Source: Planctomycetaceae bacterium
GTDB taxonomy: Bacteria; Planctomycetota; Phycisphaerae; SM23-33
Assembly (NCBI GenBank): GCA_039680605.1
Contig: JBDKTA010000008.1
Coordinates: 1-64,000, forward strand
Length of the DNA stretch: 64,000 bases
Direction of reading: 5' to 3'
The notes under the pieces were generated by a model, which saw nothing but the letters and a program-made list of their open reading frames with translations, was not told the DNA's origin and made no database searches. The first letter of the stretch is position 1. The number at the start of each line of letters is the position of its first letter. Positions 1 through 23,393 of this stretch are shown piece after piece. Made by a program: the position numbers and the translations under genes.

Positions 1-26
1 GCGTCGACGACGTAATAGACTTTCAT
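1..26 (-). CDS. Start of a phage late gene cut by the window edge
   Basis: An ATG at 26-24 on the minus strand begins M-K-V-Y-Y-V-V-D-A and runs off the window. It overlaps the TGA of the upstream gene as ATGA, suggesting translational coupling, and a G-rich AAGGGGG sequence lies just upstream as a ribosome binding site. Too little is visible to name a function; by position it is a structural or tail gene. Confidence 0.55.
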
Positions 27-436
27 TTGGCCCCCCTTGCCGCCGCCAAACGGGATTCGGCTGCTGAGGCGTAATCTTCCGCCGCCAGCGATTCCTTCAC
101 CTGCGCGCGGGCCTTGGCGTGTTTGCCAGCCGTCGACGGGTCCAGCGGGTCGCTGCTCATGGCTTCGACCGTGAGCTTGCTCGTCATCCGCTTCATGCCC
201 TCAGCCTGCGCCCGTGCGGCGGTCGCCCGCTGACTGAGCTTGTTCACCGCCAGCGACAGGCGCTTGGCCGGCGTGTCATGCACAGCGAGGTCAACCAGCA
301 ACGAATTGCCCGGCTCAAGGACGGTCTTTGCCGGGATGCCCCCGCTAAACGTGCGGATCACGTCGCCGGGCTTGCGGCCTTTGGCGTCGCCCTCCAGAGC
401 GATCACCGCGACGGAGTTTTTCAGAGCCTTGGCCAT
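23..436 (-). CDS. Hypothetical phage late protein
   Basis: 137 residues starting M-A-K-A-L-K-N-S-V; the ATG follows AGAGGTC, so I prefer it to an in-frame ATG 69 bases upstream. The N-terminal 60 residues look beta-rich and hydrophobic (VAVIALEGD, GNSLLVDLAVHD); the C-terminal half is a charged Ala/Lys/Arg helix. I do not recognise the family. It lies directly downstream of the cement-protein gene in the late operon and its stop overlaps the next gene, so a small structural role (head completion or accessory decoration) is plausible but unproven. Confidence 0.6.
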   Translation of the reverse strand: MAKALKNSVAVIALEGDAKGRKPGDVIRTFSGGIPAKTVLEPGNSLLVDLAVHDTPAKRLSLAVNKLSQRATAARAQAEGMKRMTSKLTVEAMSSDPLDPSTAGKHAKARAQVKESLAAEDYASAAESRLAAARGAK

Positions 437-529: not shown

Positions 530-1879
530 TTACGCCGGGTTGAGCCACGCCGAGGCGGTGACCGACGCCACGCGGCCGGCGACGTACCAGCGCAGGCGCA
601 CGTAGCGCTGCGTGATGCCCACCAGCTTGACGATCTGCTCTGCGGCCGTCACGGCGAACCTCAGGCCGGTCGAGGCGTACGTTACGCCGTCGGCGCTTTC
701 CTGGACCTCGCATTCCAGCGGTTCGAGAATGCTGACATGCGCGTCGGCGGTCAGGCTCGACGCGGTGCCCGCCAGCACGAACGCCAGCTTGACGTAGCGG
801 GCGAGGGCCTTGAATCCGATCTCGTACTCAGCGGCCTCATCGACGACGATCCGGGCCCCGGTCGAGGTCCACGTTTCGCCGTCGGCGCTCTCCATCACCT
901 CGACGGCGTAGCTCTCGCTGGCGACGATCGCCGCAGAGGCGGTCAGGCTCGACGCCGTGCCCGCCAGGGCGAAGGCCAGCTTCACGTACCGCTGCGAGGC
1001 CACAAACGGGATCGTGTATTCCGTCGCCGCAGCGACGGTGATCTTCGCCCCGGTGGAGGTCCAGGCCTGCTCGTCGGCGCTTTCCATGACCTCGGCGGTG
1101 TACGCCTCGTAGGCGGTGATCGCCGCGTCGAGCGTCATCGACGGCTCGTCGCCGCCCAGGGTCGCGACGAACTTGACGTAGCGCTTGGAGGCGGTGAAGT
1201 GGCCGCTGACTGCGGCCGCCGCCGCGACGGTGAACTTCAGGCCCGTGGTTGTCCACGCCTGCTCGTCGGCCGACTCGAACACTTCGACAGTGTAGGTCTC
1301 CGTGCCGGCCGAGGTCTTGACGGCCGTCACGTCCATCGTGAACTCCATCGGCCCGTCGATTACGCGGCCCAGGTCCACGGTCGATTCGCTGTCGGCGGTA
1401 GCCGCGATCACCTGGGCCGACGCCAGCTCCAGATCGGCCGGGTCGAACGCCGCCAGGGCCGTCACGTCCAGGCTGATCGCCATCGGCCCGCCCGCCGCCG
1501 TCGCGCCCAGATCCACCGTCGATTCGCTGTCGCCGTCTGCAACGACTGCCTGGGCGTCCATCAGTTCCAGATCGTCGCTGTCGAACAGCGCCAGGTCCGT
1601 CACGTCCAGCAGGACCTTGAGCGGAACGTCGCGGTCGGGCTCGAACGCCTCGCCCAGATCGGCGACGGCCTCGCTGTCGCCGCTGGCGGTCACCGCCTGG
1701 GCGGTCATCAGGTCCAGATCGCCCGCCGCATGGGCGGTCAGGGCCGTGACGTTCAGATCCAGAAGCACCGGCATGTGCGGGACGGGGGCAAAGCCTTCGC
1801 CCAGGTCGATCACGGCAGCGCTGACGCCGTCTGCGGCGAGGGTCTGGGCGTTCATCAACTGGGACAGTACGTCTTTCAT
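530..1879 (-). CDS. Giant multi-module Bbp16-like capsid cement protein
   Basis: 449 residues from the ATG that begins M-K-D-V-L-S-Q (GAGGATC upstream). It is built from the same two half-domains as the 117-residue protein encoded next to it. The N-terminal part has four copies of a half-domain with the pattern AQxxxAxGDSExxVDLG followed by LDVTAL. The C-terminal part has four copies of a half-domain with ExxESADEQAWTSTG, then FxASxRYVKL and GTxxSLTA. The small protein has one of each. The family resembles the Bordetella phage BPP-1 Bbp16 cement/decoration proteins encoded beside the major capsid gene (recognised by motif, not searched). The 4N+4C order instead of (NC)x4 is unusual. Role inferred: capsid decoration or a capsid-associated fibre. 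Confidence 0.6.
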   Translation of the reverse strand: MKDVLSQLMNAQTLAADGVSAAVIDLGEGFAPVPHMPVLLDLNVTALTAHAAGDLDLMTAQAVTASGDSEAVADLGEAFEPDRDVPLKVLLDVTDLALFDSDDLELMDAQAVVADGDSESTVDLGATAAGGPMAISLDVTALAAFDPADLELASAQVIAATADSESTVDLGRVIDGPMEFTMDVTAVKTSAGTETYTVEVFESADEQAWTTTGLKFTVAAAAAVSGHFTASKRYVKFVATLGGDEPSMTLDAAITAYEAYTAEVMESADEQAWTSTGAKITVAAATEYTIPFVASQRYVKLAFALAGTASSLTASAAIVASESYAVEVMESADGETWTSTGARIVVDEAAEYEIGFKALARYVKLAFVLAGTASSLTADAHVSILEPLECEVQESADGVTYASTGLRFAVTAAEQIVKLVGITQRYVRLRWYVAGRVASVTASAWLNPA

Positions 1880-2469: not shown

Positions 2470-3405
2470 TTACGCCGGGTTACTGTTGAGGATGCCCGCG
2501 TAGCGCACGGCGCAGCGGGGGTGATGGGCGGCCATGCCGGCCCGGCCTTCGACCACCGTGATATCCTGAGTGCCGCTCATGCCGCGATCGGCGACTTCCA
2601 GGAAGTTGTTGGCGTTGCGGGCCAGGCCCACCACGTCTTCCTCGTCGTTGACGCCGGGCACGAAGACGATGATCGAGCCGCTCACCGACGAGTTGCCCCG
2701 CGTCTCGTTGAAGGCCATGATCTCGGCGCCCAGTTCGTCATCGCCGGGGACGATGATCTGAGCCCCGCCGTAGCGGGTCACGATGTTCTGGCCCTGCCAC
2801 TCGGCCATCGAGATGACCGTGGCGCCACGGGTCCGCAGCACCGAGCCCAGGCGGATCTGCATCGCCGAGCCCATCAGCAGGACCTTGCGCGTGTTGTCGC
2901 CGGGCACGCGGGCGATCAGGCCGTCCAGGACTTCCAGGTCGATCGTGCCGCCGTGGGTTCCGGCGTACACCAGGTTGTCCCCGGCGATGCGGCGGTAGAG
3001 GCCGTCGAAGCCGGTGGGTCTGGTGGCCGTCGAGCCCTTGATGAAGTTCTTGACGTAGAACCTCGCCGCCGCCTTGGTCTTCTTGGCGATGCGGTCGGCC
3101 TTGACGCGGGTATTGCCCGAGAGCTGGCGGTCGATGTTGACCTCGCCGCCCATGATCGCCAGCCGTTCGATCACGGGGTTGTTGATGCCGCTGGTCTTTT
3201 CAGCGGCGGTGTAGTCGGCGTTGAGCGCGCGGAAGCCGACGCCGCCCAGGGACGCCTCGCGATTGTATTCGTAGCTGATCGCCTCGGCCGTGTCCTGGAA
3301 CCGCAGGACGTTGAACAGCGGATTGGTCGCCACGAACGTTTCGACCACGCCGCGAGCCACTGCGTTGGGGGTCATCGCGGCGTACTGAATGAGCAACTCT
3401 GCCAT
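2470..3405 (-). CDS. Phage major capsid protein
   Basis: 311 residues; the ATG at 3405 follows CGGAGAATAGAC. The protein opens with an N-arm (MTPNAVARGVVETFVATNPLFNVLRF), has a central stretch GGEVNIDRQL and ends with GVRYAGI-like residues (AVRYAGILN), a layout typical of HK97-fold major capsid proteins of the BPP-1/podovirus-like group. The gene lies between a putative scaffold gene and two cement-protein genes, the usual head order. It has its own terminator, consistent with a highly expressed transcript. Function inferred from size, motifs and neighbours; the HK97 fold was not tested. Confidence 0.8.
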   Translation of the reverse strand: MAELLIQYAAMTPNAVARGVVETFVATNPLFNVLRFQDTAEAISYEYNREASLGGVGFRALNADYTAAEKTSGINNPVIERLAIMGGEVNIDRQLSGNTRVKADRIAKKTKAAARFYVKNFIKGSTATRPTGFDGLYRRIAGDNLVYAGTHGGTIDLEVLDGLIARVPGDNTRKVLLMGSAMQIRLGSVLRTRGATVISMAEWQGQNIVTRYGGAQIIVPGDDELGAEIMAFNETRGNSSVSGSIIVFVPGVNDEEDVVGLARNANNFLEVADRGMSGTQDITVVEGRAGMAAHHPRCAVRYAGILNSNPA

Positions 3406-3477: not shown

Positions 3478-4017
3478 TTACTTCTTCGCCGCTTCGGCCA
3501 GGCCGGCGGCGATCTTCTGGGTGGGGCTGAGCTTCTCGATGTCGGCGGCCGAGGAACTGGCGGCGGCCGGGGCGGCAGCGCCAACGTCGGCGGGCTTGAA
3601 CGCTCCGCTGTCCACGTCGCCCTTGTACGCGGCGGCGGCGGCGTCGACGGCGGCCTTGAGGGCGTCGGGGTCTTCGGTTTCGGGAACGCCCTTGAGGTAC
3701 GCCGCCGGGATCTTGGGCGCGTTGGCGGCGATGTAGTCGTCGCGGGCCTTGGCGGCCTTGGCCTTGTCGGCCTTGGCCTGCTCGTCCTTGGCGGCAGCGG
3801 CGGCGGCCGCGTCCTGCTGGGCCTTGATCGTGTCGGCGACAATCGCCTTGATGGCCGACTCGTCGACGGGCTTGCCGTTGACCTTGATGCCTTCGAGCTG
3901 CGCGGCGATCTGGTCGCTGAGGTCCTTGATCTGTTTCTTGGTCATCTCGGCAGCGCCGCTGATGGCGTTGTCGATAATGCCGATGATCTCCTGTCTGTCT
4001 TCCGCTGCGATGGCCAT
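3478..4017 (-). CDS. Ala/Lys-rich putative capsid scaffold protein
   Basis: 179 residues from the ATG at 4017 (AAAGGACGG upstream); an in-frame upstream ATG at 4053 lacks a good site. The sequence is very rich in Ala, Lys, Asp and Glu with a predicted long helix in the middle (QQDAAAAAAAKDEQAKADKAK) and a low-complexity Ala/Ser tail. Phage scaffolding proteins are commonly short, helical and acidic/basic and lie directly upstream of the major capsid gene, exactly as here. No enzyme motif is visible, so the call rests on composition and position. Confidence 0.6.
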   Translation of the reverse strand: MAIAAEDRQEIIGIIDNAISGAAEMTKKQIKDLSDQIAAQLEGIKVNGKPVDESAIKAIVADTIKAQQDAAAAAAAKDEQAKADKAKAAKARDDYIAANAPKIPAAYLKGVPETEDPDALKAAVDAAAAAYKGDVDSGAFKPADVGAAAPAAASSSAADIEKLSPTQKIAAGLAEAAKK

Positions 4018-4081
4018 AAGCCGTCCTTTCGTTGTTAGCCGGCAGTGTTCCATGCGGCCCGCCGTCGCCGCTCAATAACGT

Positions 4082-4360: not shown

Positions 4361-5440
4361 CTATTCCGGACCTACCGGCTCGGCCGGCCCGCCGCGCTGG
4401 CCGTCGTACTTCTTGCGGGCGGCGAACATCTTGTCGATGCCCTGGTACGCCTTCTGAGCCTGGCGGCCGTCCATGCCGAGGAACTTTTCGTTGATCCGTC
4501 CGGTCGACAATTCTTTGGCCGTTGCCAGCTTCGCCACGAACGGAGCGAGGTTGTGCGTGCAATTGGGGTGGAACGGCGGTCCGCTCGATGGGATCGACGA
4601 CAGCGGCGGATACTCCCCGCTCTGACCCGAGACGCTGAAAATCTTGCCCACGTAGAAATCGCAGAAGTCCCCGCTGAAGGGACCGGTGATGGTGACCAGG
4701 TCCAGCAGCATCGGGTCGCCAAGCTCCTCGCCTGTCTCCTGCAGGCGCTGCTTGGTCGCCTCGCTGACCGCCTGGCGAAGCTGGTAGCTGGCGACCAGCG
4801 TGCAGTACTGGGTGACTCGGATGGGATGGTCGCTGCGGCCGGGGGTGATGTACCCGTCCTGAAAGTCGGCGATCTGTTTGAGCTGCTCATCGGACAGTGC
4901 GCCGCTTTCGGCGAGCTCGCGGCCGCCCTCGGCCAGGCGGTCCCGCACGTTGCGTGCGATCTTGCCGATGGATCCTCCGCTGATCAGGCCCTTGGCGATC
5001 ACCGTCGAGAGCTCGGGATTGCTCACCAGGACCTGCTGAGTCGTCGCGATGATGCGCCGGCAGTTGTCGGCCATCGACTTGTTCGCCCCCGCCAGGTCCC
5101 GCGCGAGCTGAGAGGCAAACGTGTTCACCGCCCGCTCATTGATCTTCATCCACTGGGCGTCGATCCCACCGGCCAGCGGAGTCTTCAGGCCAATCCGCAG
5201 CAGCTCGTTATCCGCCCACGCCGCCCCGGCCCGGTACAGCGGCCCGACGTTTCCGCCTACCCAGCGGTCGGAGGCGATGCCCAGCCGCCGCTCGATCGCC
5301 CGCACCTGGGGGATCAGCACGGCGGCCTTGCCACGCTGAAAGTCGGTCCCAGAGAGCAGCCCCACCAGGTCCTTTTGGGCCTGTCCGTAGAGCCGCTGGA
5401 GGACGGCCAACTGCTGATCGGATGGTTGGGGTGTCTGCAT
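4361..5440 (-). CDS. Phage minor capsid / head morphogenesis protein
   Basis: 359 residues. The C-terminal third has the hallmarks of the SPP1 gp7 / phage minor capsid protein 2 group: GDFCDFYVGKIFS, then PPLSSIPSSGPPFHPNCTH, where the H-P-N-C element is conserved and may bind metal. The N-terminal 200 residues are helical. It follows the portal gene, as in SPP1-like head operons, where the protein assists procapsid assembly and DNA ejection. The ribosome binding site is weak, and the upstream gap holds two hairpins. Function from motif and order. Confidence 0.75.
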   Translation of the reverse strand: MQTPQPSDQQLAVLQRLYGQAQKDLVGLLSGTDFQRGKAAVLIPQVRAIERRLGIASDRWVGGNVGPLYRAGAAWADNELLRIGLKTPLAGGIDAQWMKINERAVNTFASQLARDLAGANKSMADNCRRIIATTQQVLVSNPELSTVIAKGLISGGSIGKIARNVRDRLAEGGRELAESGALSDEQLKQIADFQDGYITPGRSDHPIRVTQYCTLVASYQLRQAVSEATKQRLQETGEELGDPMLLDLVTITGPFSGDFCDFYVGKIFSVSGQSGEYPPLSSIPSSGPPFHPNCTHNLAPFVAKLATAKELSTGRINEKFLGMDGRQAQKAYQGIDKMFAARKKYDGQRGGPAEPVGPE

Positions 5441-5589: not shown

Positions 5590-7041
5590 TCACCCCTGCG
5601 GGGCGGTCTGGGCGTCCGGATCGGCCTGGCTTTCGTCGATCACGCTGGCCGGATCGGCAAATCCGGTCGGCAGGCTCGCGGCCTCTTCGTCGGCCAGCAG
5701 TTGGAGCTCTTCCTCGACGACGTTCATGTCGCCGTCATGGATCCACATCAGCGCCCGCTTGCGCGACAGCAGCCCCGCGCTGCGATAGCCGACGATGACC
5801 CTCATGTCGTCCTCGGGGTCAGACGGCAGCCCGTCGCTCCAGGTCAGCGACACCGCCTTGACCTCGTAGCGCCCCACGCCCAGGCCGAAGGCGTTGTCCA
5901 TCAGCATCATCACGCGGATGGACCGCTTGACCGCAGGCGACATGTAGAGGCGCTTGCGCTTCACGCGGGCCATCGTCTGGTTGACCTGGAGCTTGAACTT
6001 CTTCCACGTCTCTGCAGAGGTCGCCCCGCCGCCGACGCCCATGAGCACGGGGGCCATCTCCAGCTCGCCGTAGACGCTGTCGCGGGCGTTGACCAGAGAG
6101 GCCGCCGCGTCAGGGAGCTTGGCGTCCCACGTGACGTAGCGCATCGCGTCTTTGGACATGTCGTCGACGGCCAGCACGTCGCCGGTCTTCAGGTTGCCCT
6201 GGGCGTCGAACAGGCTCTCCAGCGCCTGGGCGACCGGGTCGCCGTGCTTGTCGAGTATGCGGCTGATCTGGGAGCGGCGGTTGTTGACCTCGTCGATCAG
6301 GCTGTTCACTTCGCCGCAGTAGTCCGTCGCCCCGACGCCGCCGGTGGAGAAGTTGCAGACCTCGATCACGGTCAGTTCGTCGATCTTGGTTTCCTGGACT
6401 TCCTCAATGCCCGCCTCGACGACGGCCAGATCCACGCGGGCCTTGACGGCGTTGCCGTCGAGCAGATACGCCTGGTGGACGATCTTGCCCACCGTGTGCT
6501 CGATCACGCGGACGTACTTATTCCCGGCGACCGTCACGACGTACTTCACCACGGCGGCGATGAGGTTCTTGCCCGTGGCGTCGTAGCGGGGGTGGATGTT
6601 CTCGGGCGTGATCGAGTCGAGCTTCACCACGCCGCCCTGGACGATCACCTGCCAGTACGCACGGCCCGCCCATGAGGCCGTCGCCGCCGCCTCGTAGTGC
6701 ATCGTCGCCAGGCTCGACTGCTCTGAAAGACGGGTGATGGCGGCCTTGGCTTTGGGGTCGGAGTCTTCCGGCTCGATCGTCAGCGGCTCGCCGCACAGGA
6801 GGTCGGCGTACTTGAGGCTCGCGCGGCCGGCGATGTTCTCGGTGAGGTACATCACATTGGCGGCGTTAGGACCCAGGGCCTTGTAGATGTGCTGGGTGCG
6901 GTTGCCCCGGTAGAAGTATTCCTTGTGTCGGCCCTCGTAGATCTGGCGCAGCCCTTCGAGGTTCTTGATGCGAGAGCGCTCCGCTTCGCTCATCCACGGT
7001 GCGTTGTTGGTCAGCAGGTCGGGGGTCTTGAACGTAGCCAT
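5590..7041 (-). CDS. Phage portal protein, SPP1 Gp6-like
   Basis: 483 residues; the ATG at 7041 follows CAGGAG. The order of motifs fits SPP1 Gp6-type portals: N-terminal helices with RIKNLEGLRQIYEGRHKEYF, a wing region, the stem with LDKHGDPVAQALESLFD, and a C-terminal region with VNQTMARVKRKRLYMSPAVKR. Portal proteins form the dodecameric ring at the capsid vertex through which DNA is packed. The gene sits directly after the large terminase and before the minor capsid protein, the standard order. Confidence 0.85.
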   Translation of the reverse strand: MATFKTPDLLTNNAPWMSEAERSRIKNLEGLRQIYEGRHKEYFYRGNRTQHIYKALGPNAANVMYLTENIAGRASLKYADLLCGEPLTIEPEDSDPKAKAAITRLSEQSSLATMHYEAAATASWAGRAYWQVIVQGGVVKLDSITPENIHPRYDATGKNLIAAVVKYVVTVAGNKYVRVIEHTVGKIVHQAYLLDGNAVKARVDLAVVEAGIEEVQETKIDELTVIEVCNFSTGGVGATDYCGEVNSLIDEVNNRRSQISRILDKHGDPVAQALESLFDAQGNLKTGDVLAVDDMSKDAMRYVTWDAKLPDAAASLVNARDSVYGELEMAPVLMGVGGGATSAETWKKFKLQVNQTMARVKRKRLYMSPAVKRSIRVMMLMDNAFGLGVGRYEVKAVSLTWSDGLPSDPEDDMRVIVGYRSAGLLSRKRALMWIHDGDMNVVEEELQLLADEEAASLPTGFADPASVIDESQADPDAQTAPQG

Positions 7042-7053
7042 GAAAAACTCCTG

Positions 7054-8835
7054 TTACCAGCCGGCGGGCTTTGCCAGCACGCGGGCGGTGCCGCGCGGCT
7101 TGGCGTCCCGCGCCGCCTCGACGGCCCACAGCGTGGCCTCAAGGTAGTCATCCTTGATCCACGTCTTCTGGCGCGTGACGATCCCCGTGACGGCGTCGGG
7201 GCGGTCCAGTTCGACATTGCCGTCGCGCTTGCCGCCAAACGACGGCACGGATGTTGAGGCGTCCTCGCGATAGTTGGTGAACTCGCGGCGAAGGACGCTG
7301 TACGTCGGGCTGGCCTTGAAGCGGCGGGTGATGACCAGGTTGTGCATGAACGTCACCAGCTGCAGCTTGGCCTGGCTGGTCATATGGTCCGCTGACGTGC
7401 GCGGTCCGAACCGCTGACCCTTGCACCATTCCCACAGGTCGCTGGCCTGGTACGCTTCGAGCTTGAGACGTCCGATGCCCCACGTGCGGTCGATCTGCAG
7501 CAGCTTGTCTTTGATCGGATCGGCCAGGGCGTACATGAACTCCCACGCCCCGATCAGCATGTACATCGAGCCGTCGCAGATCTCGGCGGCGATCTTGTTG
7601 CCCCGCTCGTCGAACACGTCGACGGGCATGCCGGTGATGCCCGGTATGACGACACGCGCCACGGCCGCCAGCACCGATCTATCGGGCGTCTTGCTGAAGG
7701 CACTGGCGCGGTCGAGCCCGACGCCGACGGAAATCGAAGTGCCCCCTAACATCCCGCGCAGCGCATCGAGTTTTCCGCCCTCGATGATGGCCGGCAGGGA
7801 ATTGTCAAACAGCGGGTCGATCTGCTCTGCGCTCCAAAGCGCCTCGCCGGATCCCGATGGAATGTTGCAGTGGTTTCGCAGAAACTCCCCGCGCGTCATG
7901 TTGGCGTAGCGGCCGCGAACCCACGCCGCCGACAGCCAGGGGTGGATCGGCTCGACGCCCTCTTCCAGACCCTCGCCGCAGCCGCGCTTCAGGCAGTCGG
8001 CCAGATCGGCGAAGTGGATCCACACGCAGCCGATGGTGGGGTCCCCGACCATCGGGTCTATCTCGCGCCCCTGCTCGGCAGCCGCAGCGGCCTCGGCCTC
8101 AGCCGCTTCAGCACGGTCGCGCATCTGTGCGACCTGGCCGGTGGCATCGCCCATGTTGGAATCGACGATCGTCACGCCGCACCACGCGTCGCCAGTACTC
8201 GACGCGCCGGTCTGGAACACGCTGTCGTCCGGCGCTTTGCAGAGCTCCGTGTTGTGGTAGACGTGGATCTTGCGGCCGTAGGTGGACTTCTCGGAGGCCG
8301 GGAGGACCTCGATGCGCGAGCCGGTTTTGTGGAAGTGGATCACGTCGGCCAGCAGTTCGATCTCGCCACGGTCGACCAGTTCGCGAAGGGCAGGCGAAAA
8401 CTGCAGCGTGAGCTTGGCCTCTCCGAAAACGGTCCCCTCGGCCTGGTCTGCCGAGTTGGCCTGGATGACCACCACCTGATTCTTGAACGCCAGGCAGCGG
8501 TGGATGTCGTAGCGGTGGGTCATGCCGCTCTTGTCGCAGCGGCGGGGGAAGCAGGGCATGATCGTCAGGTACCGCAGCAGCCCGTCATCCGTGACGGCCA
8601 GCAGCTTGCGGATGGCGTCGCGCTGCCACGCGCGGTACGTGCACGGCTGCCAGCCTATCCCCTTGGTGTCGCGATAGCAGTTGGCCTCCACCCAGGCAAT
8701 ATGCTCATCGGCCGCGAAGTGCCGCATCGTCTCGCGCTTTGCGGCGACGGGCTTATCGCCCAGCAGCGCAGCGATCTTCGCCTTGTTGCGGACGTTGGAT
8801 GGAGTTTTCTTCACACGCGGGGCCATAAGCCTCAT
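7054..8835 (-). CDS. Phage terminase large subunit
   Basis: 593 residues. The N-terminal ATPase has a deviant Walker A region FPRRCDKSG and the downstream stretch VVVIQANSADQAEGTVF, typical of terminases; a later CGVTIVDSNMGD could belong to the ATPase/nuclease transition and the C-terminal region ends in VTFMHNLVITRRF. It powers DNA packaging into the procapsid with the small subunit and portal. The start at 8835 overlaps an AAATTCCGAAT sequence also found near two other late genes. The gene is separated from the small subunit by a 290-base repeat-rich spacer with a terminator, so it probably has its own promoter. Confidence 0.8.
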   Translation of the reverse strand: MRLMAPRVKKTPSNVRNKAKIAALLGDKPVAAKRETMRHFAADEHIAWVEANCYRDTKGIGWQPCTYRAWQRDAIRKLLAVTDDGLLRYLTIMPCFPRRCDKSGMTHRYDIHRCLAFKNQVVVIQANSADQAEGTVFGEAKLTLQFSPALRELVDRGEIELLADVIHFHKTGSRIEVLPASEKSTYGRKIHVYHNTELCKAPDDSVFQTGASSTGDAWCGVTIVDSNMGDATGQVAQMRDRAEAAEAEAAAAAEQGREIDPMVGDPTIGCVWIHFADLADCLKRGCGEGLEEGVEPIHPWLSAAWVRGRYANMTRGEFLRNHCNIPSGSGEALWSAEQIDPLFDNSLPAIIEGGKLDALRGMLGGTSISVGVGLDRASAFSKTPDRSVLAAVARVVIPGITGMPVDVFDERGNKIAAEICDGSMYMLIGAWEFMYALADPIKDKLLQIDRTWGIGRLKLEAYQASDLWEWCKGQRFGPRTSADHMTSQAKLQLVTFMHNLVITRRFKASPTYSVLRREFTNYREDASTSVPSFGGKRDGNVELDRPDAVTGIVTRQKTWIKDDYLEATLWAVEAARDAKPRGTARVLAKPAGW

Positions 8836-9126: not shown

Positions 9127-9672
9127 TCATCCCGCTGCGGCCGTCGCGCCCTCGCGGGCGTTGACCAGCCGCTGCCATTCGATCTTGATGGCCGGCTCGT
9201 ACTTCTCGAAGTTCGGCACGGTGCGGCGGATCGCCTCCATGAGGCAGTCGATCGCGTCCTTCTTTCGCGTCTCTTCGGCCAGGCGGCTGTCCAGGGCGTT
9301 ATCGGCGAACTTGCTGACATTGATCATCGCGAACACTTCCTGGGACAGGCTGCCCTCCTCGGCGTCTTCGACCATCCGCAGCACGCGGCCGGCCAGCTTC
9401 TCGCGCAGCTGCAGCATGTCGGCCATGACGCGCGAGCGGGCCGACACGTACTCCGTGCTCACGGCGTCCTGGCTGGCCTTCTCCGCTTCGTAGCGGCGCT
9501 CGGACCAGGTCTTTCCTTCCTTGGGGACGTAGGCCCAGTTCTCGATGGTCTTGGCGCTGGGCACGTCTTTGCCGACGTGGCGGCGCTTGAGCTCGCGGGC
9601 GATGTCGCCCGGCGAGTTGCCGGCCAGGTACAGCTCAAACGCTTCGGTTCGGATCGCAGGATCGTAGCTCAC
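9127..9672 (-). CDS. Putative terminase small subunit
   Basis: 181 residues starting at GTG 9672 with CAGGAG upstream. The N-terminus is a helix-turn-helix (AFELYLAGNSPGDIARELKRR, then PSAKTIENW) followed by a long charged helix and a C-terminal hydrophobic segment, the layout of small terminases that recognise packaging sites. It lies just upstream of the large terminase, though a terminator and repeat spacer separate them. Family assignment by HTH and position; sequence search would be needed to name the family. Confidence 0.7.
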   Translation of the reverse strand: MSYDPAIRTEAFELYLAGNSPGDIARELKRRHVGKDVPSAKTIENWAYVPKEGKTWSERRYEAEKASQDAVSTEYVSARSRVMADMLQLREKLAGRVLRMVEDAEEGSLSQEVFAMINVSKFADNALDSRLAEETRKKDAIDCLMEAIRRTVPNFEKYEPAIKIEWQRLVNAREGATAAAG

Positions 9673-11001: not shown

Positions 11002-11258
11002 CGCGTGACTCCCTGTCTCGTACCCGACCCGGTCAGCAGCCAGTCGGCGCTGATGTTCAGGATGATACACGCCCCGGCCAGAAACGCCAGCGGGATCGGC
11101 GCCGAGCCGTCCAGGAACGCGGCGGCCTCAGCCTCGCTCCAGCCGGTAAAGTCGGCCAGGTCCTTTACCGTCGTCTCGCCCATCGACTGGCGGATTCTCA
11201 GCCCCACGATCTGCGAGACTTCCAGTTCGTTCGACTTGAGCGTGTACGTGTCGGTCAT
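10998..11258 (-). CDS. XRE-family HTH protein, second repressor-like
   Basis: 86 residues; AAGGAT precedes the ATG. The middle shows an HTH (TTVKDLADFTGWSEAEAAAFL) followed by the sequence NISADWLLTGSG, which matches the end of many CI-like repressor DNA-binding domains. The start overlaps the stop of the longer repressor gene as ATGA, so both are made from one mRNA. The protein lacks any C-terminal domain; it may modulate the longer repressor or form heterodimers. Confidence 0.75.
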   Translation of the reverse strand: MTDTYTLKSNELEVSQIVGLRIRQSMGETTVKDLADFTGWSEAEAAAFLDGSAPIPLAFLAGACIILNISADWLLTGSGTRQGVTR

Positions 11259-11782
11259 TTTTTATCCTTGCGGAGTCGCTTCATCTTATCGGCTTCGCTC
11301 TCGAATCCCGATGGAGGCGTGTAGGTATCGTCAAGAGCGGCGTCGGCAATCTGCACAGCCTCAAGTTCGCGCTTGGCGGCGACCAGTCGGCGCAGTTTCT
11401 CCATCCGCTGCATCAGGTCATCGCGCTTCTTCTTCATCAAAGGTTCGGCCTTCTCCGTGTATGCCCGCTGCGTCAAGGCAAGTTCATCCTCAACACGCCG
11501 CGCCTCTTCATGGATGGACAGCGCGTCGATGAGCGACCAGTCGAAGCTCCCACGTCGCTTGGGACCTTGGCCGGTGAGCAGCCATTCGGCGCTGACGTTG
11601 AGGAACTCACACGCGGAGAAAAAGAACGGAAGAGGCATAGGGCGCTGGCCGGCCAGGTAAAGGCTCACGGCCGAAGTTCCGTAGCCCAGGGCGCGAGAAA
11701 ATTCAGCCTGCTTAATTCTTCCGAGGGATTCCTTGATCCGGTCCCCGATCTCTGCGGCAAGTTTCGCTTCGTCAACGCCCAT
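11255..11782 (-). CDS. XRE-family phage repressor-like protein
   Basis: 175 residues. An N-terminal HTH (IKQAEFSRALGYGTSAVSLYLAG) leads to LNVSAEWLLTGQG, the signature of CI-type repressors; the rest is a long coiled coil (EARRVEDELALTQRAYTEKA and RDDLMQRMEKLRRLV) rather than an autocleaving S24 peptidase domain, so SOS-type self-cleavage is not expected. It is transcribed leftward from the control region that also faces the Cro/Ner-like gene, the layout of a lysis-lysogeny switch. Likely role: keeping the rightward early promoter off. Confidence 0.8.
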   Translation of the reverse strand: MGVDEAKLAAEIGDRIKESLGRIKQAEFSRALGYGTSAVSLYLAGQRPMPLPFFFSACEFLNVSAEWLLTGQGPKRRGSFDWSLIDALSIHEEARRVEDELALTQRAYTEKAEPLMKKKRDDLMQRMEKLRRLVAAKRELEAVQIADAALDDTYTPPSGFESEADKMKRLRKDKK

Positions 11783-15241: not shown

Positions 15242-16049
15242 CAGCAAGAGCGGCAGCATTCCAGAGTTCATGATCCAGGCCGGGCAGCATCAACTGGACA
15301 AGTTCAAGCTGGTGAGCAAAGACCTGCGAACGGCCTTCACGCCTGGCAACATCGACAAGGCTGTGATGATCGTCAACTACATTCACCAGTCGATCCAGGA
15401 CATGAGCCTCAGTGGGGGCATCATGGCCGGAGAGTTCCTCGTCAGCCTGAAGATCAGCCTCACCACTCACGGAGAGTGGATGAAGTTCTGCAGCGAAAGA
15501 TTCCCGACCATATCGCACCGAACCATCAACCGATGGATGCAGCGGTACCTGATCTCCTCGGGTGAGAAGAAGCCCAAGGAACTGCCGGCCATCAGCGACG
15601 ACGACGCCGACGATGTGGAACTTCTCGACGCCATGATGAACCCCAAGTCCGAACAGGACGACAAGCTCCCCCGCGCCGCCCTGGTCGATCACAACAAGAA
15701 ACTCCGCAAGGGCATCGAGAAGGGGCAGGAGCAACTGGCGGCCCTCAGCGAGCAGGTTGCCGAACTGACTCGGAAGCTTGAGCAGGCGCAGCAGGGCTAC
15801 CAGATCCCCGAGCACGTCAAAGACGAGACGCTGCGCGTGGAGCATCTGCGAAACCAGTTCTGGGGATTCGTCAAGGCCTGGAAGTACGCCCTGCCCCGCA
15901 AGGCAGACCTCATCAAGCTTCACTCCGCGCTTTATTCCGAACTCAGGGATGAGATGAACGACCTGTGGATCAACCACTTCGGGGACTTCGTGCAGGAAGT
16001 CGTCGACAACGAGCTTGTTGCCAAAGCCAAGAAGGCGCGTAAGGAATAA
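15222..16049 (+). CDS. DUF3102-like early protein
   Basis: 275 residues; of two adjacent ATGs I chose the second because GGAGAAG is then at normal spacing. Residues about 60-95 (AGEFLVSLKISLTTHGEWMK followed by TISHRTINRWMQ) match the pattern of DUF3102/plasmid-type proteins, in which a cell-size 'hGEW' helix precedes an HTH. A coiled coil follows (LRKGIEKGQEQLAALSEQVA). It lies 1 base upstream of the transposase gene and under the palindrome, so it may regulate or assist transposition. Function is inference. Confidence 0.6.
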   Translation: MARKASDSKSGSIPEFMIQAGQHQLDKFKLVSKDLRTAFTPGNIDKAVMIVNYIHQSIQDMSLSGGIMAGEFLVSLKISLTTHGEWMKFCSERFPTISHRTINRWMQRYLISSGEKKPKELPAISDDDADDVELLDAMMNPKSEQDDKLPRAALVDHNKKLRKGIEKGQEQLAALSEQVAELTRKLEQAQQGYQIPEHVKDETLRVEHLRNQFWGFVKAWKYALPRKADLIKLHSALYSELRDEMNDLWINHFGDFVQEVVDNELVAKAKKARKE

Positions 16050-16050
16050 C

Positions 16051-17694
16051 GTGGCTATCGATCCGGTCATCATAGTCGAGATGGTTGCCCGCCTGGCGAC
16101 CTGCGCCCGCCGCAGCGAACGCGGCGACGTGGTGTCGTACTACGCGCGGCTGTGCGGCGTGACGGCCGCCACGATGCGACGCGCCGCCGCCAATGCCGGG
16201 GCGTCCTTCGGCTACAAACAGCGGGCCGACAAGGGCGTCGTCAAAGACGCCGATCGCGCTGCGGCCTGCGAGGCCGTCGCCAACATCATCATCAAGTCAG
16301 GCGGCCGGATGCCCGCGTGGGTCGCCATCGACCGCGCTATCCAGATCGGCGTTCTTGGACCGGAGTTCGGCCTCAAGCCTCACCACGTGCAGCGGCACAT
16401 GAGGATGCTCAAGGCCGGCGGAGTCGAGGCCGTCGAGGCCTCAGGACCCAAGAGCAGCCGCGTGATCAACTGGGGCGCTGTCGGCCACGTGCTGCAGATG
16501 GACTCGACCAACTGCAGCCAGTGGTTCTTCACCGAGCCCACCGGCGAAATCCGCTACACGCGGCGGGGCGAAGTCTACCGCAACAAGCCTGCAAAGACCC
16601 CTCCGGTCATCCGCTACGCCGCCATCGATCCCCCCAGCGGCATGTTCCGCGTCCGCTACTACCAGACGGCCGGTGAGTCTGCCGACATCACGCTGCAGTT
16701 CCTGTACTTCGCGATGACGCCCTCGGCCCTGGGCGACCGGCTGCCCATGGCAGGCCAGCCCGACGTGCTCGTGCTGGACAAGGGGCCCGGCAACAAGTCC
16801 TCGGCCGTGCTGAACGTCTGCCAGGCCCTGGGCATCGAGCATCGCACCCACGCCGCCGGCCACTCATGGGCCAAGGGGCACGTCGAGGGCCTCATGCGGC
16901 TGTGGGAGCAGTTCTTTGAATCGGAGCTCATGCTCTGGCCGGCAAAGAGCCTGGACGAACTCAACGAGCGGGCAGAGCTCTACAACGCCCGCTTCTGCCA
17001 GACCCGAATTTTCACCCGCACCAAGTCCACGCGAACGGCCCACTACGCCGCCAACCGCACGGCCATCGTCCTGCCGCCGGCGTGGGATGTGTTCGTCGAG
17101 ATGGCGACCTCCACCCGCGAGACCCGCAGCGTCGCCGGCGGGCACCTGATTTCCTATGAGGGTCATGAGTATTACGTAGGCACGTTGCAGGGCCTGGCTA
17201 CCGGCGACAGCGTCGAGGTCGCCAAGGCGGTCCTGGAATGGGACGAGCAGACCCGCCCGGTGAGGATCTATCACGACGGCCAGATGATCATCGAACGCGC
17301 CCAGGTCAAAGACGCCTCGGGCGTCTACGCCGATCACCGCGTGTACGAGAAACGCAGCGACGCGATCCTTGAAGCGGCGGCGCAAGATCGCGAGCTTCGC
17401 CTGGCCAAGCCCGTTCCGCCGCTACCCCAAGCGGACATCGAATCGATCAAGCCCATGCCCGTGGCGGCCGGGCATCGGCCGGCCGTCATGCGGCCCGCCC
17501 AGCCGGTGCGGATGTACGCACGCACCGACGCGCTATTGAAGCTCTCCGACAAGATCGGCCGCGAGCTGACCCGCTTCGACGTGCACGGCCTGGGCTGGGG
17601 CGAGAGCGTGTCTGCGGCGCAGATCGCGGCGGCCGTTGCCGACCTGTCCCGCGGGGCCGACAAGGGCGAAGGCCGCAACGTCGCTGCAGGATAG
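16051..17694 (+). CDS. Mu-type DDE transposase (MuA-like)
   Basis: 547 residues, starting at GTG 16051 with AAGGAAT upstream. The catalytic triad is Asp151 (VLQMDSTN), Asp243 (LVLDKGPGN) and Glu279 (KGHVEGLM), with exactly 35 residues between the second Asp and the Glu, the DD35E signature of the integrase/transposase core. An N-terminal DNA-binding part (residues 1-120) and a C-terminal beta domain plus tail that could contact the ATPase are present. Known role of the family: joining phage ends to target DNA in integration and replicative transposition. The next gene encodes its MuB-like partner. Confidence 0.92.
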   Translation: MAIDPVIIVEMVARLATCARRSERGDVVSYYARLCGVTAATMRRAAANAGASFGYKQRADKGVVKDADRAAACEAVANIIIKSGGRMPAWVAIDRAIQIGVLGPEFGLKPHHVQRHMRMLKAGGVEAVEASGPKSSRVINWGAVGHVLQMDSTNCSQWFFTEPTGEIRYTRRGEVYRNKPAKTPPVIRYAAIDPPSGMFRVRYYQTAGESADITLQFLYFAMTPSALGDRLPMAGQPDVLVLDKGPGNKSSAVLNVCQALGIEHRTHAAGHSWAKGHVEGLMRLWEQFFESELMLWPAKSLDELNERAELYNARFCQTRIFTRTKSTRTAHYAANRTAIVLPPAWDVFVEMATSTRETRSVAGGHLISYEGHEYYVGTLQGLATGDSVEVAKAVLEWDEQTRPVRIYHDGQMIIERAQVKDASGVYADHRVYEKRSDAILEAAAQDRELRLAKPVPPLPQADIESIKPMPVAAGHRPAVMRPAQPVRMYARTDALLKLSDKIGRELTRFDVHGLGWGESVSAAQIAAAVADLSRGADKGEGRNVAAG

Positions 17695-21922: not shown

Positions 21923-22833
21923 AGACTATCGACGCTATTGATCTTTGCTGCGGGGGGGGGGGATGGGCCGTGGCAGCACGCGGCCTTGGCATCAACATTG
22001 TGGCAGCCGTGGACCTCTGGAGGCCAGCCTGCATGACGTACCAAATCAATAACCCACGGACAACAGTCATCAACGGCGACCTGAGAGACGCAGCCCTTCA
22101 GCGCAGGGTGATCGATGACTACTCAGGAAAGGTCCAGCTTATCCTTGGCGGCATTCCATGCGAGTGGCTGTCCATCCGGCGCAACGTCGGGAACGGCGTC
22201 GGCGATGAGGAGTTAGAACAGCAGAGGGCGACTCTCAATAGCGTTCTCGATCTTGTTGCCGCGATAGGTCCTCAGTGGTACTGCCTGGAAGATGTCAAGG
22301 GCCTTGCAAAGGAACTTCCGGCCGGAACTCCGTGGATTGAAATCGACGCTGCAGCGTATTCTCCCCAGCGCCGCAAACGAATCTACGTCGGCAATTTCCC
22401 CCGTCCGACAGGAGTTGGACCGCTTCTTGAGCCAGAGTCGAAAGAGGTCCTGAAAGACCGCCTTCGTGCTGGTCCATTCAGGATCGGTGCCAGGTCGCAT
22501 GGCCGCGAGTTTGTAACCAGCAACGCCTTCAGCCCGGACAAAGCCTATGTCGCTCCGGTCGAAGGCAAGTCACCTACCATTTGCACTCTGACCTCAAGGC
22601 ATGATCCTGAGTTCCTGGTCTACGATGAGCGGCTGCCTGGCGGCGTGAGGCAACTGGAGTGGCAGGAAGCTGCGCGTCTTCAGGGTTTCCCCGAAGACTA
22701 CATGTTCTTTGGATCCCCGACTGACGTTGGTACCCAGATCGGCAGGGCTGTGCAGATCGACACGGCGCGGGTGATTCTGAGCGGGATAGCTAAAGAAGCC
22801 GGATGCCTCTCAAGCGATGGAGTAATGCAATGA
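21919..22833 (+). CDS. DNA C5-cytosine methyltransferase
   Basis: 304 residues. Motif I is DLCCGGGGW, motif IV is GGIPCEWLS with the catalytic Cys81, motif VI is LEDVKG, motif VIII is SPQRRKRIYVG, and motif X-like GTQIGRAVQ is near the end. The enzyme would methylate a specific DNA site at cytosine C5; in phages this protects against host restriction. No cognate restriction gene is beside it. The motif I Gly codons contain ten consecutive G bases (21953-21962), an obvious slippage site. The PC motif with E-D-V instead of E-N-V is a small deviation. Confidence 0.9.
   Translation: MKTIDAIDLCCGGGGWAVAARGLGINIVAAVDLWRPACMTYQINNPRTTVINGDLRDAALQRRVIDDYSGKVQLILGGIPCEWLSIRRNVGNGVGDEELEQQRATLNSVLDLVAAIGPQWYCLEDVKGLAKELPAGTPWIEIDAAAYSPQRRKRIYVGNFPRPTGVGPLLEPESKEVLKDRLRAGPFRIGARSHGREFVTSNAFSPDKAYVAPVEGKSPTICTLTSRHDPEFLVYDERLPGGVRQLEWQEAARLQGFPEDYMFFGSPTDVGTQIGRAVQIDTARVILSGIAKEAGCLSSDGVMQ
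21953..21962 (+). repeat. G10 homopolymer in methyltransferase motif I
   Basis: Ten G residues encode the Gly stretch of motif I near codon 12. A one-base change would frameshift and inactivate the enzyme. The frame is intact as read here. Confidence 0.85.
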
Positions 22834-23393
22834 ACGCCACCCAGCGACTCCAGCAGTACGGCCGGATCCACAAGGCCAAGAAGAACCTCGGCCTGGACGA
22901 CGCCGCGTATCGCCAACTGCTCACGTCACTGACCGGAGTCGACAGTTGCAAGGCGATGACCGACCGCCAGGTCAACCACGCTCTGGACTGGCTTAACTAC
23001 TTCGCCGGCGTCCGGTACAAAATGCCAACGCCGTTCGGCCGCGTGGGTGCCTCAGGAGACGCCAAGGCCAACCTCGTGGCCCTGTGCTACGCCATAGCCC
23101 ACATCGTGCCGCCTGGGTGGACCAAGCCGCCGCTGAGGTCCATGCAGTGGCAAGAGCGGACGTGCGGCCGCTGCTCGCCGGCGTTCGAGGACATGGAGAT
23201 TGAGGACCTCACGAAGCTGATCGAGGGCGTCAAGGCCATCTTCTACCGCATGGGCCTCAGGTCAAATGTGCCGCTTGCCACTGACGTGAAACTTGACAGG
23301 AACGGCCGTCTTTACCAGCCGTGGCACGAGCCACTGCCGACAAGACAGCAGTCAGACTCCAGCCGTTCAGGAGACGCCGCCAGTGCGGGCTGA
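22830..23393 (+). CDS. GemA/gp16-like (DUF1018) phage protein
   Basis: 187 residues; ATGA overlap with the methyltransferase. The N-terminus RLQQYGRIHKAKKNLGLDDA followed by YRQLLTSLTGVDSCKAMTDR is characteristic of the Mu gp16/GemA family, which in Mu affects host gene expression and DNA supercoiling. Residues 90-140 contain a second helical domain seen in longer family members (MQWQERTCGRCSPAFEDMEI, IEGVKAIFYRMG). It is the last gene before the host flank. Confidence 0.8.
   Translation: MNATQRLQQYGRIHKAKKNLGLDDAAYRQLLTSLTGVDSCKAMTDRQVNHALDWLNYFAGVRYKMPTPFGRVGASGDAKANLVALCYAIAHIVPPGWTKPPLRSMQWQERTCGRCSPAFEDMEIEDLTKLIEGVKAIFYRMGLRSNVPLATDVKLDRNGRLYQPWHEPLPTRQQSDSSRSGDAASAG

Follow-up and report, generated by a model that had tools for sequence, protein, structure and literature searches.

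Head gene cluster of the prophage

The window, the whole stretch of 64,000 nucleotides analyzed here, begins with base 1 of contig C8 (161,544 bp). Its left end is occupied by prophage head genes on the minus strand, from the large terminase through a gene for a 449-residue protein, hereafter gene A. The following features were recognized at the locus:

530-1879, minus strand: gene A, 449-residue protein with the layout N1-N2-N3-N4-C1-C2-C3-C4
2035-2388, minus strand: gene B, 117-residue ordinary single-domain (NC) cement protein
2470-3405, minus strand: major capsid protein (MCP) of the epsilon15 gp7 type (NCBIfam NF045672, E=8.9e-34, 117.3 bits against a cut-off of 75; phrog_212)
3478-4053, minus strand: probable scaffold protein
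4361-5440, minus strand: minor head protein (phrog_4611, E=3.2e-21)
5590-7041, minus strand: portal protein (phrog_533, E=2.6e-33; PF05133)
7054-8835, minus strand: terminase large subunit (phrog_9, E=3.5e-17)
9127-9672, minus strand: small terminase subunit
11255-11782, minus strand: repressor-like gene
16015-17694, plus strand: transposase (phrog_310, E=5.5e-33)
22803-23393, plus strand: gene matching phrog_286

The probable scaffold gene has no PHROG match and was assigned by its position between the minor head protein and MCP genes, a gene order also found in Streptomyces phage Rowa. The transposase, the small terminase, the repressor-like gene and the phrog_286 match suggest a Mu-like transposable prophage with a head cluster of the BPP-1/epsilon15 type. 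This prophage probably continues on contig C1 (11,839 bp; L077), where the right-hand genes are homologues of the post-cement head-completion and tail genes of the phage in G024 (JAUVIQ010000016, a Planctomycetales MAG), the nearest relative that carries a phage of this type. The prophage thus has a planctomycete as its host. The end of C1 and the start of C8 share no exact overlap, and the join is therefore inferred from gene order. Contig C1 carries head-completion, tail-like and tape-measure-like genes; a gene at 287-1171 resembles, on inspection by eye, a DNA adenine methylase.

The gene for the epsilon15/BPP-1-type MCP is followed by gene B and then by gene A. Gene B is an ordinary Bbp16/phrog_427-type cement protein: it consists of one N and one C half, its TTG start is preceded by AGGAG, and its homologue in the G024 phage (L064) has an ATG at the same start site. 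Both genes match phrog_427 (gene A with E=2.9e-24, gene B with E=7.5e-15), whereas the Bbp16 family PF21190 gives gene A 22.3 bits, under the cut-off of 27.1, and does not match gene B. The size of an ordinary single-domain protein with one N and one C half is found in gene B and not in gene A; with four halves of each kind, the latter was filed as a variant of the cement family rather than as an ordinary member.

The cement identity proposed in the earlier note is supported. Some annotations point elsewhere: phrog_9522, a related profile matching gene B, is labelled major tail protein, and Pfam galactose-binding-like models match gene A weakly. Such matches would suit a protein of nested jellyrolls that does not decorate the head but acts in the neck or tail, perhaps as an adhesin; however, gene A lies directly after the MCP and cement genes and before the head-completion genes, and its N1 unit retains the cement features that in BPP-1 touch the MCP. 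We consider a tail or neck role unlikely, while leaving it a small share of the probability.

Block layout of the 449-residue protein

Gene A starts with an ATG at 1879, preceded by GAGG, and ends with a stop codon at 530-532. The encoded protein is composed of eight units:

1721-1879, minus strand: N1 (residues 1-53), strands B, C and D of the putative outermost domain, still with its extended N-terminus and a long C-D loop
1574-1720, minus strand: N2 (residues 54-102)
1436-1573, minus strand: N3 (residues 103-148), partner of C2 in the models
1301-1435, minus strand: N4 (residues 149-193), partner of C1, with the shortest C-D loop
1106-1300, minus strand: C1 (residues 194-258), innermost domain, predicted strands E to I; the ETYT with which the N|C hairpin begins in ordinary proteins is kept
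914-1105, minus strand: C2 (residues 259-322), partner of N3 in the models
722-913, minus strand: C3 (residues 323-386)
533-721, minus strand: C4 (residues 387-449), putative C half of the outermost domain, where ordinary cement C halves align when offered alone

Counting the respective half of gene B, the N units are 31-57% and the C units 32-64% identical to one another. When gene A was compared with shuffled sequences, N-N pairs reached z values of 5.8-11.9 and C-C pairs of 8.9-23, whereas every N-C pair remained below 3; the N and C units are unrelated in sequence. A single-cement-protein profile finds gene A at E=1.9e-81 and recovers the order N, N, N, NC, C, C, C unaided. The unit statistics and the profile order thus bear out the earlier reading of an N-N-N-N-C-C-C-C protein next to a 117-residue NC neighbor.

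The gene is located on a MAG contig, 530 bases from its end, which could raise the suspicion of an assembly artefact or a decaying gene. However, identity between the copies is only ~42-72% per codon position, third positions included. This divergence excludes a recent duplication in the assembly, in agreement with the argument from codons made in the earlier note. The 449-codon frame is intact, and its GC content by codon position (0.67/0.48/0.89) follows the pattern of coding DNA; an artefact or a gene in decay is scarcely credible here. No second copy of gene A was found elsewhere in its own genome (5.23 Mb). A frame of 592 codons at 119-1897 of the plus strand runs antisense across gene A; the long plus-strand open frames are high-GC shadows, and this one is probably no gene.

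Predicted fold and pairing of the halves

Two AlphaFold2 models were analyzed, one of full-length gene A and one of residues 101-324 (N3-N4-C1-C2, 224 residues); in both, homologous alignment rows covered only N4-C1. In the full-length model (pTM 0.45), the pLDDT is 85-97 for N4-C1, ~50 for N2 and ~30 for N1. The best structural match of N4-C1 is the BPP-1 cement protein 3j4u_H (Z 13.4, rmsd 2.4 Å, 110 aligned residues), and the second best is the Carin1 cement protein 8cjz_A (Z 11.3, rmsd 2.7, 107 aligned residues), with other β-sandwiches matching at Z ~10 and lower. The eight strands of a jellyroll are seen in the modeled N4-C1, the outer domains being at low pLDDT. Thus, the modeling strongly supports a cement fold for N4-C1. 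A sequence search of solved structures returned chance matches only.

In the 224-residue model, strand D spans 76-87 and strand E 95-103, and the N|C cut is located between the two. The strand letters were assigned by order: the N4 strands match B, C and D and the C1 strands match E to I, so that the cut corresponds to the D-E loop. Unrelated folds for the N and C units, the outcome that the earlier note had set against its own reading, were not predicted. As modeled, the two are not independent folds, and N4 and C1 together form one jellyroll split at the D-E loop.

Evidence for a second level comes from both models. In the full-length model, 99 residues over the span 106..321 align to two galactose-binding-type folds, 9g43_A (Z 8.5, rmsd 3.1) and 4lks_A (Z 8.1, rmsd 2.9); the range gives the first and last aligned residues only, and Z ~8 is by itself a common level, but 99 aligned residues over this span place N3 and C2 in one compact domain. 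The 224-residue model (pLDDT 83.6, pTM 0.69) has the strands of N3 and C2 formed, and 95 of its residues over 8..220 align to 4uyb (Z 8.2, rmsd 2.8). The joint between N3-C2 and N4-C1 in this model consists of ~7 residues outward (D of N3 to B of N4) and ~2 residues back (I of C1 to E of C2). The two models support a second β-sandwich or jellyroll made of N3 and C2, with N4-C1 inserted in its D-E loop.

Two other arrangements of the same halves were weighed against these models. The N and C halves could have been amplified separately, with the N units forming one β structure and the C units another, or with irregular pairing. Adjacent copies are indeed the most similar pairs within both the N block and the C block, as stepwise tandem duplication predicts, and the outer units are at low confidence in the full-length model. 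On the other hand, a lone N half holds only the jellyroll strands B, C and D, N4-C1 folds as a cement protein, N3 and C2 are compact in both models without homologous rows, and the distances given below fit mirror pairing better than same-order pairing; we regard separate amplification as improbable. Alternatively, the N array of one chain could complete the C array of another in a domain-swapped oligomer. BPP-1 cement is dimeric on the capsid (PMC3863775), and the arrays could exchange between chains without altering the domain folds. Since the monomer models already bring N3 and C2 together, and N4 and C1 are directly joined as in ordinary single-domain proteins, we rate such a swap as highly improbable.

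Within a single chain, the pairing of the two outer levels, N1-C4 and N2-C3, is suggested by sequence comparisons of several kinds: (i) when offered separately, the N halves from four ordinary cement proteins are placed on N1 and the C halves from three on C4, the placement on C4 being unstable once more sequences are added; (ii) the N-terminal extension is confined to N1, and the C-D loop differs in length from that of gene B by 0 in N1 and N2, -3 in N3 and -4 in N4; and (iii) the pairing N1-C4, N2-C3, N3-C2 and N4-C1 gives the best agreement between the distance matrix of the N units and that of the C units (r=0.94, first of 24 pairings, p ~0.04), versus 0.61 for same-order pairing. With gene B included, the nested pairing has r 0.70 and the runner-up 0.68. 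Shortened C-D loops are expected in distal domains if N1-C4 is the one on the capsid, as this loop is a capsid contact. Single cement proteins aligned at full length mostly fell on N4-C1, and in pairwise scores the C half of gene B is closer to C1 than to C4, C1 scoring highest. The TETYT with which the hairpin of ordinary proteins begins is kept in N4-C1, as would be expected at the tip of a stalk. The net charge is strongly acidic in the inner three domains (-11 to -17) and nearly neutral in N1-C4 (-3), a contrast that weakly fits a capsid base and an exposed stalk.

The nested fold put forward in the earlier note is thus strongly supported for N4-C1 and backed by two models for N3-C2, and for N2-C3 and N1-C4 it is a matter of sequence only.

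A putative self-nested head stalk and its relatives

We propose, with a probability of about three in four, that gene A is a cement paralogue that has been lengthened, through repeated insertion into itself, to a doubly connected stalk on the head. Three rounds would have taken place in which one cement domain was inserted into another at the D-E loop, yielding N1[N2[N3[N4 C1]C2]C3]C4. The termini of a jellyroll (the start of B and the end of I) are located at one end and the D-E loop at the opposite end, so each inserted domain would stack end to end on the previous one, in the distal direction. The product would be a single-chain stalk of four jellyrolls with an estimated length of ~14-16 nm, and, with two covalent crossings at every joint, it would be expected to be stiffer than tandem beads. 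Of the two shapes that the earlier note had considered, a rod would thus follow from jellyroll geometry, whereas a collar found no support.

The outermost domain, N1-C4, would be seated on the capsid like an ordinary cement protein, via the segments at its two termini and the C-D loop. The contacts of BPP-1 cement with the capsid are the N-terminus, the C-terminus and the C-D loop (PMC3863775). The gene A protein would probably fill some of the cement sites as a head spike, the putative role of which could be touching host or surface material, or reinforcing or protecting the shell. Both capsid binding and function are proposed from gene position and homology. That a natural protein has arisen by three successive self-insertions of the same domain at one loop, giving four levels and a stiff stalk on a phage head, is a claim that we favor with more reserve.

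Comparison with known systems revealed both shared and distinct features. Bbp16, the BPP-1 cement protein (PDB 3j4u, PF21190), has the jellyroll unit and the post-MCP gene position in common with gene A, and its capsid-touching elements are present in N1-C4; however, it is a protein of one domain and 140 residues, whereas gene A has four units in a split, mirrored order. The Carin1 cement protein (PDB 8cjz) and epsilon15 gp10 are single-domain decorations of related heads and, unlike gene A, have no nesting. In the birnavirus capsid protein VP2, the jellyroll of the shell carries a second, projecting jellyroll in one of its loops. A VP2 region is among the structural matches of the gene A model, and no sequence relation between VP2 and gene A was found; VP2 is a major capsid protein with two levels at most, whereas four are proposed for gene A.

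Multi-domain decoration proteins are usually pictured as domains in series, and the layout of gene A differs from this picture. The Ig-like domains of Hoc (T4), pb10 (T5) and gp17 (N4) are joined simply in series, whereas the gene A chain would go out through all N halves and back through all C halves. The units of gene A are split and mirrored, and their best matches are cement jellyrolls rather than Ig-like domains. Hoc, pb10 and gp17 are described as elongated or Ig-containing capsid decorations, some with roles in host adhesion, and for epsilon15 gp10 a dimer of predicted jellyroll fold, located at two-fold sites, is given (PMC7602432).

Among the phage, prophage and planctomycete loci reached via cement or MCP searches (57 open frames carrying a single N and a single C unit, some at overlapping or duplicate loci, ~45 distinct), none other than gene A has two N or two C units. 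Genome searches covering the order (38 genomes), the class (397) and the phylum (392) found only single units outside gene A. A tblastn search of phage records with gene A gave one weak match only (BcepC6B), and viral contigs scanned with either gene A or gene B by itself gave no matches. No other protein with the unit order of gene A turned up in these searches, and the open-access literature yielded no prior description of nested cement domains. Some long uncharacterized viral proteins with structure matches, e.g., A0A6J5SRR8 (333 residues), may be multi-domain, perhaps nested, relatives. Phage Percy, which came from a viral-structure match, was dropped as a T7-like phage.

The G024 phage, with an MCP 58% identical to that of the prophage, has a single cement gene only, and in the place of gene A it encodes a 615-residue protein of no known family (L016, 2125-3972, minus strand). 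Large proteins, again dissimilar, occupy the same post-cement slot in the related contigs L081 and L082, suggesting that this slot may be a variable site for surface proteins.

A second insertion at the same junction was found in Erythrobacter phage XM05, which has two adjacent cement paralogues. One of them, XM05_84 (L012, 3083-3811), contains an insert of ~95 residues exactly at the N|C junction in the D-E loop; in contrast to gene A, this insert is single and unrelated to the cement domain. The D-E loop thus accepts insertions in a second paralogue of an unrelated phage. XM05_84 is annotated as 'tail fiber protein' and the adjoining single-domain paralogue as 'major tail protein', and both names look wrong.

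If confirmed, the nested stalk would demonstrate a route from capsid glue to spike, in which repeated insertions at a single exposed loop leave the capsid anchor intact, provide two covalent links per joint and lengthen the protein outward from a fixed base. The D-E loop of the cement family would then be a natural insertion site, as also indicated by the unrelated insert in the second phage, and gene A would provide a clean test case for how deeply nested domains fold and how their structures are predicted.

Two further cement-like genes were noted. In a viral contig with a related MCP, a second cement paralogue follows the normal one (L085, 6556-7410, plus strand); by eye, it consists of an N half, a Ser/Thr-rich insert of ~65 residues and a C half, although alignment did not place the insert. 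In a Candidatus Aenigmatarchaeota MAG contig, a C-half-like domain ends a protein of 930 residues (L069, 1445-4237, plus strand).
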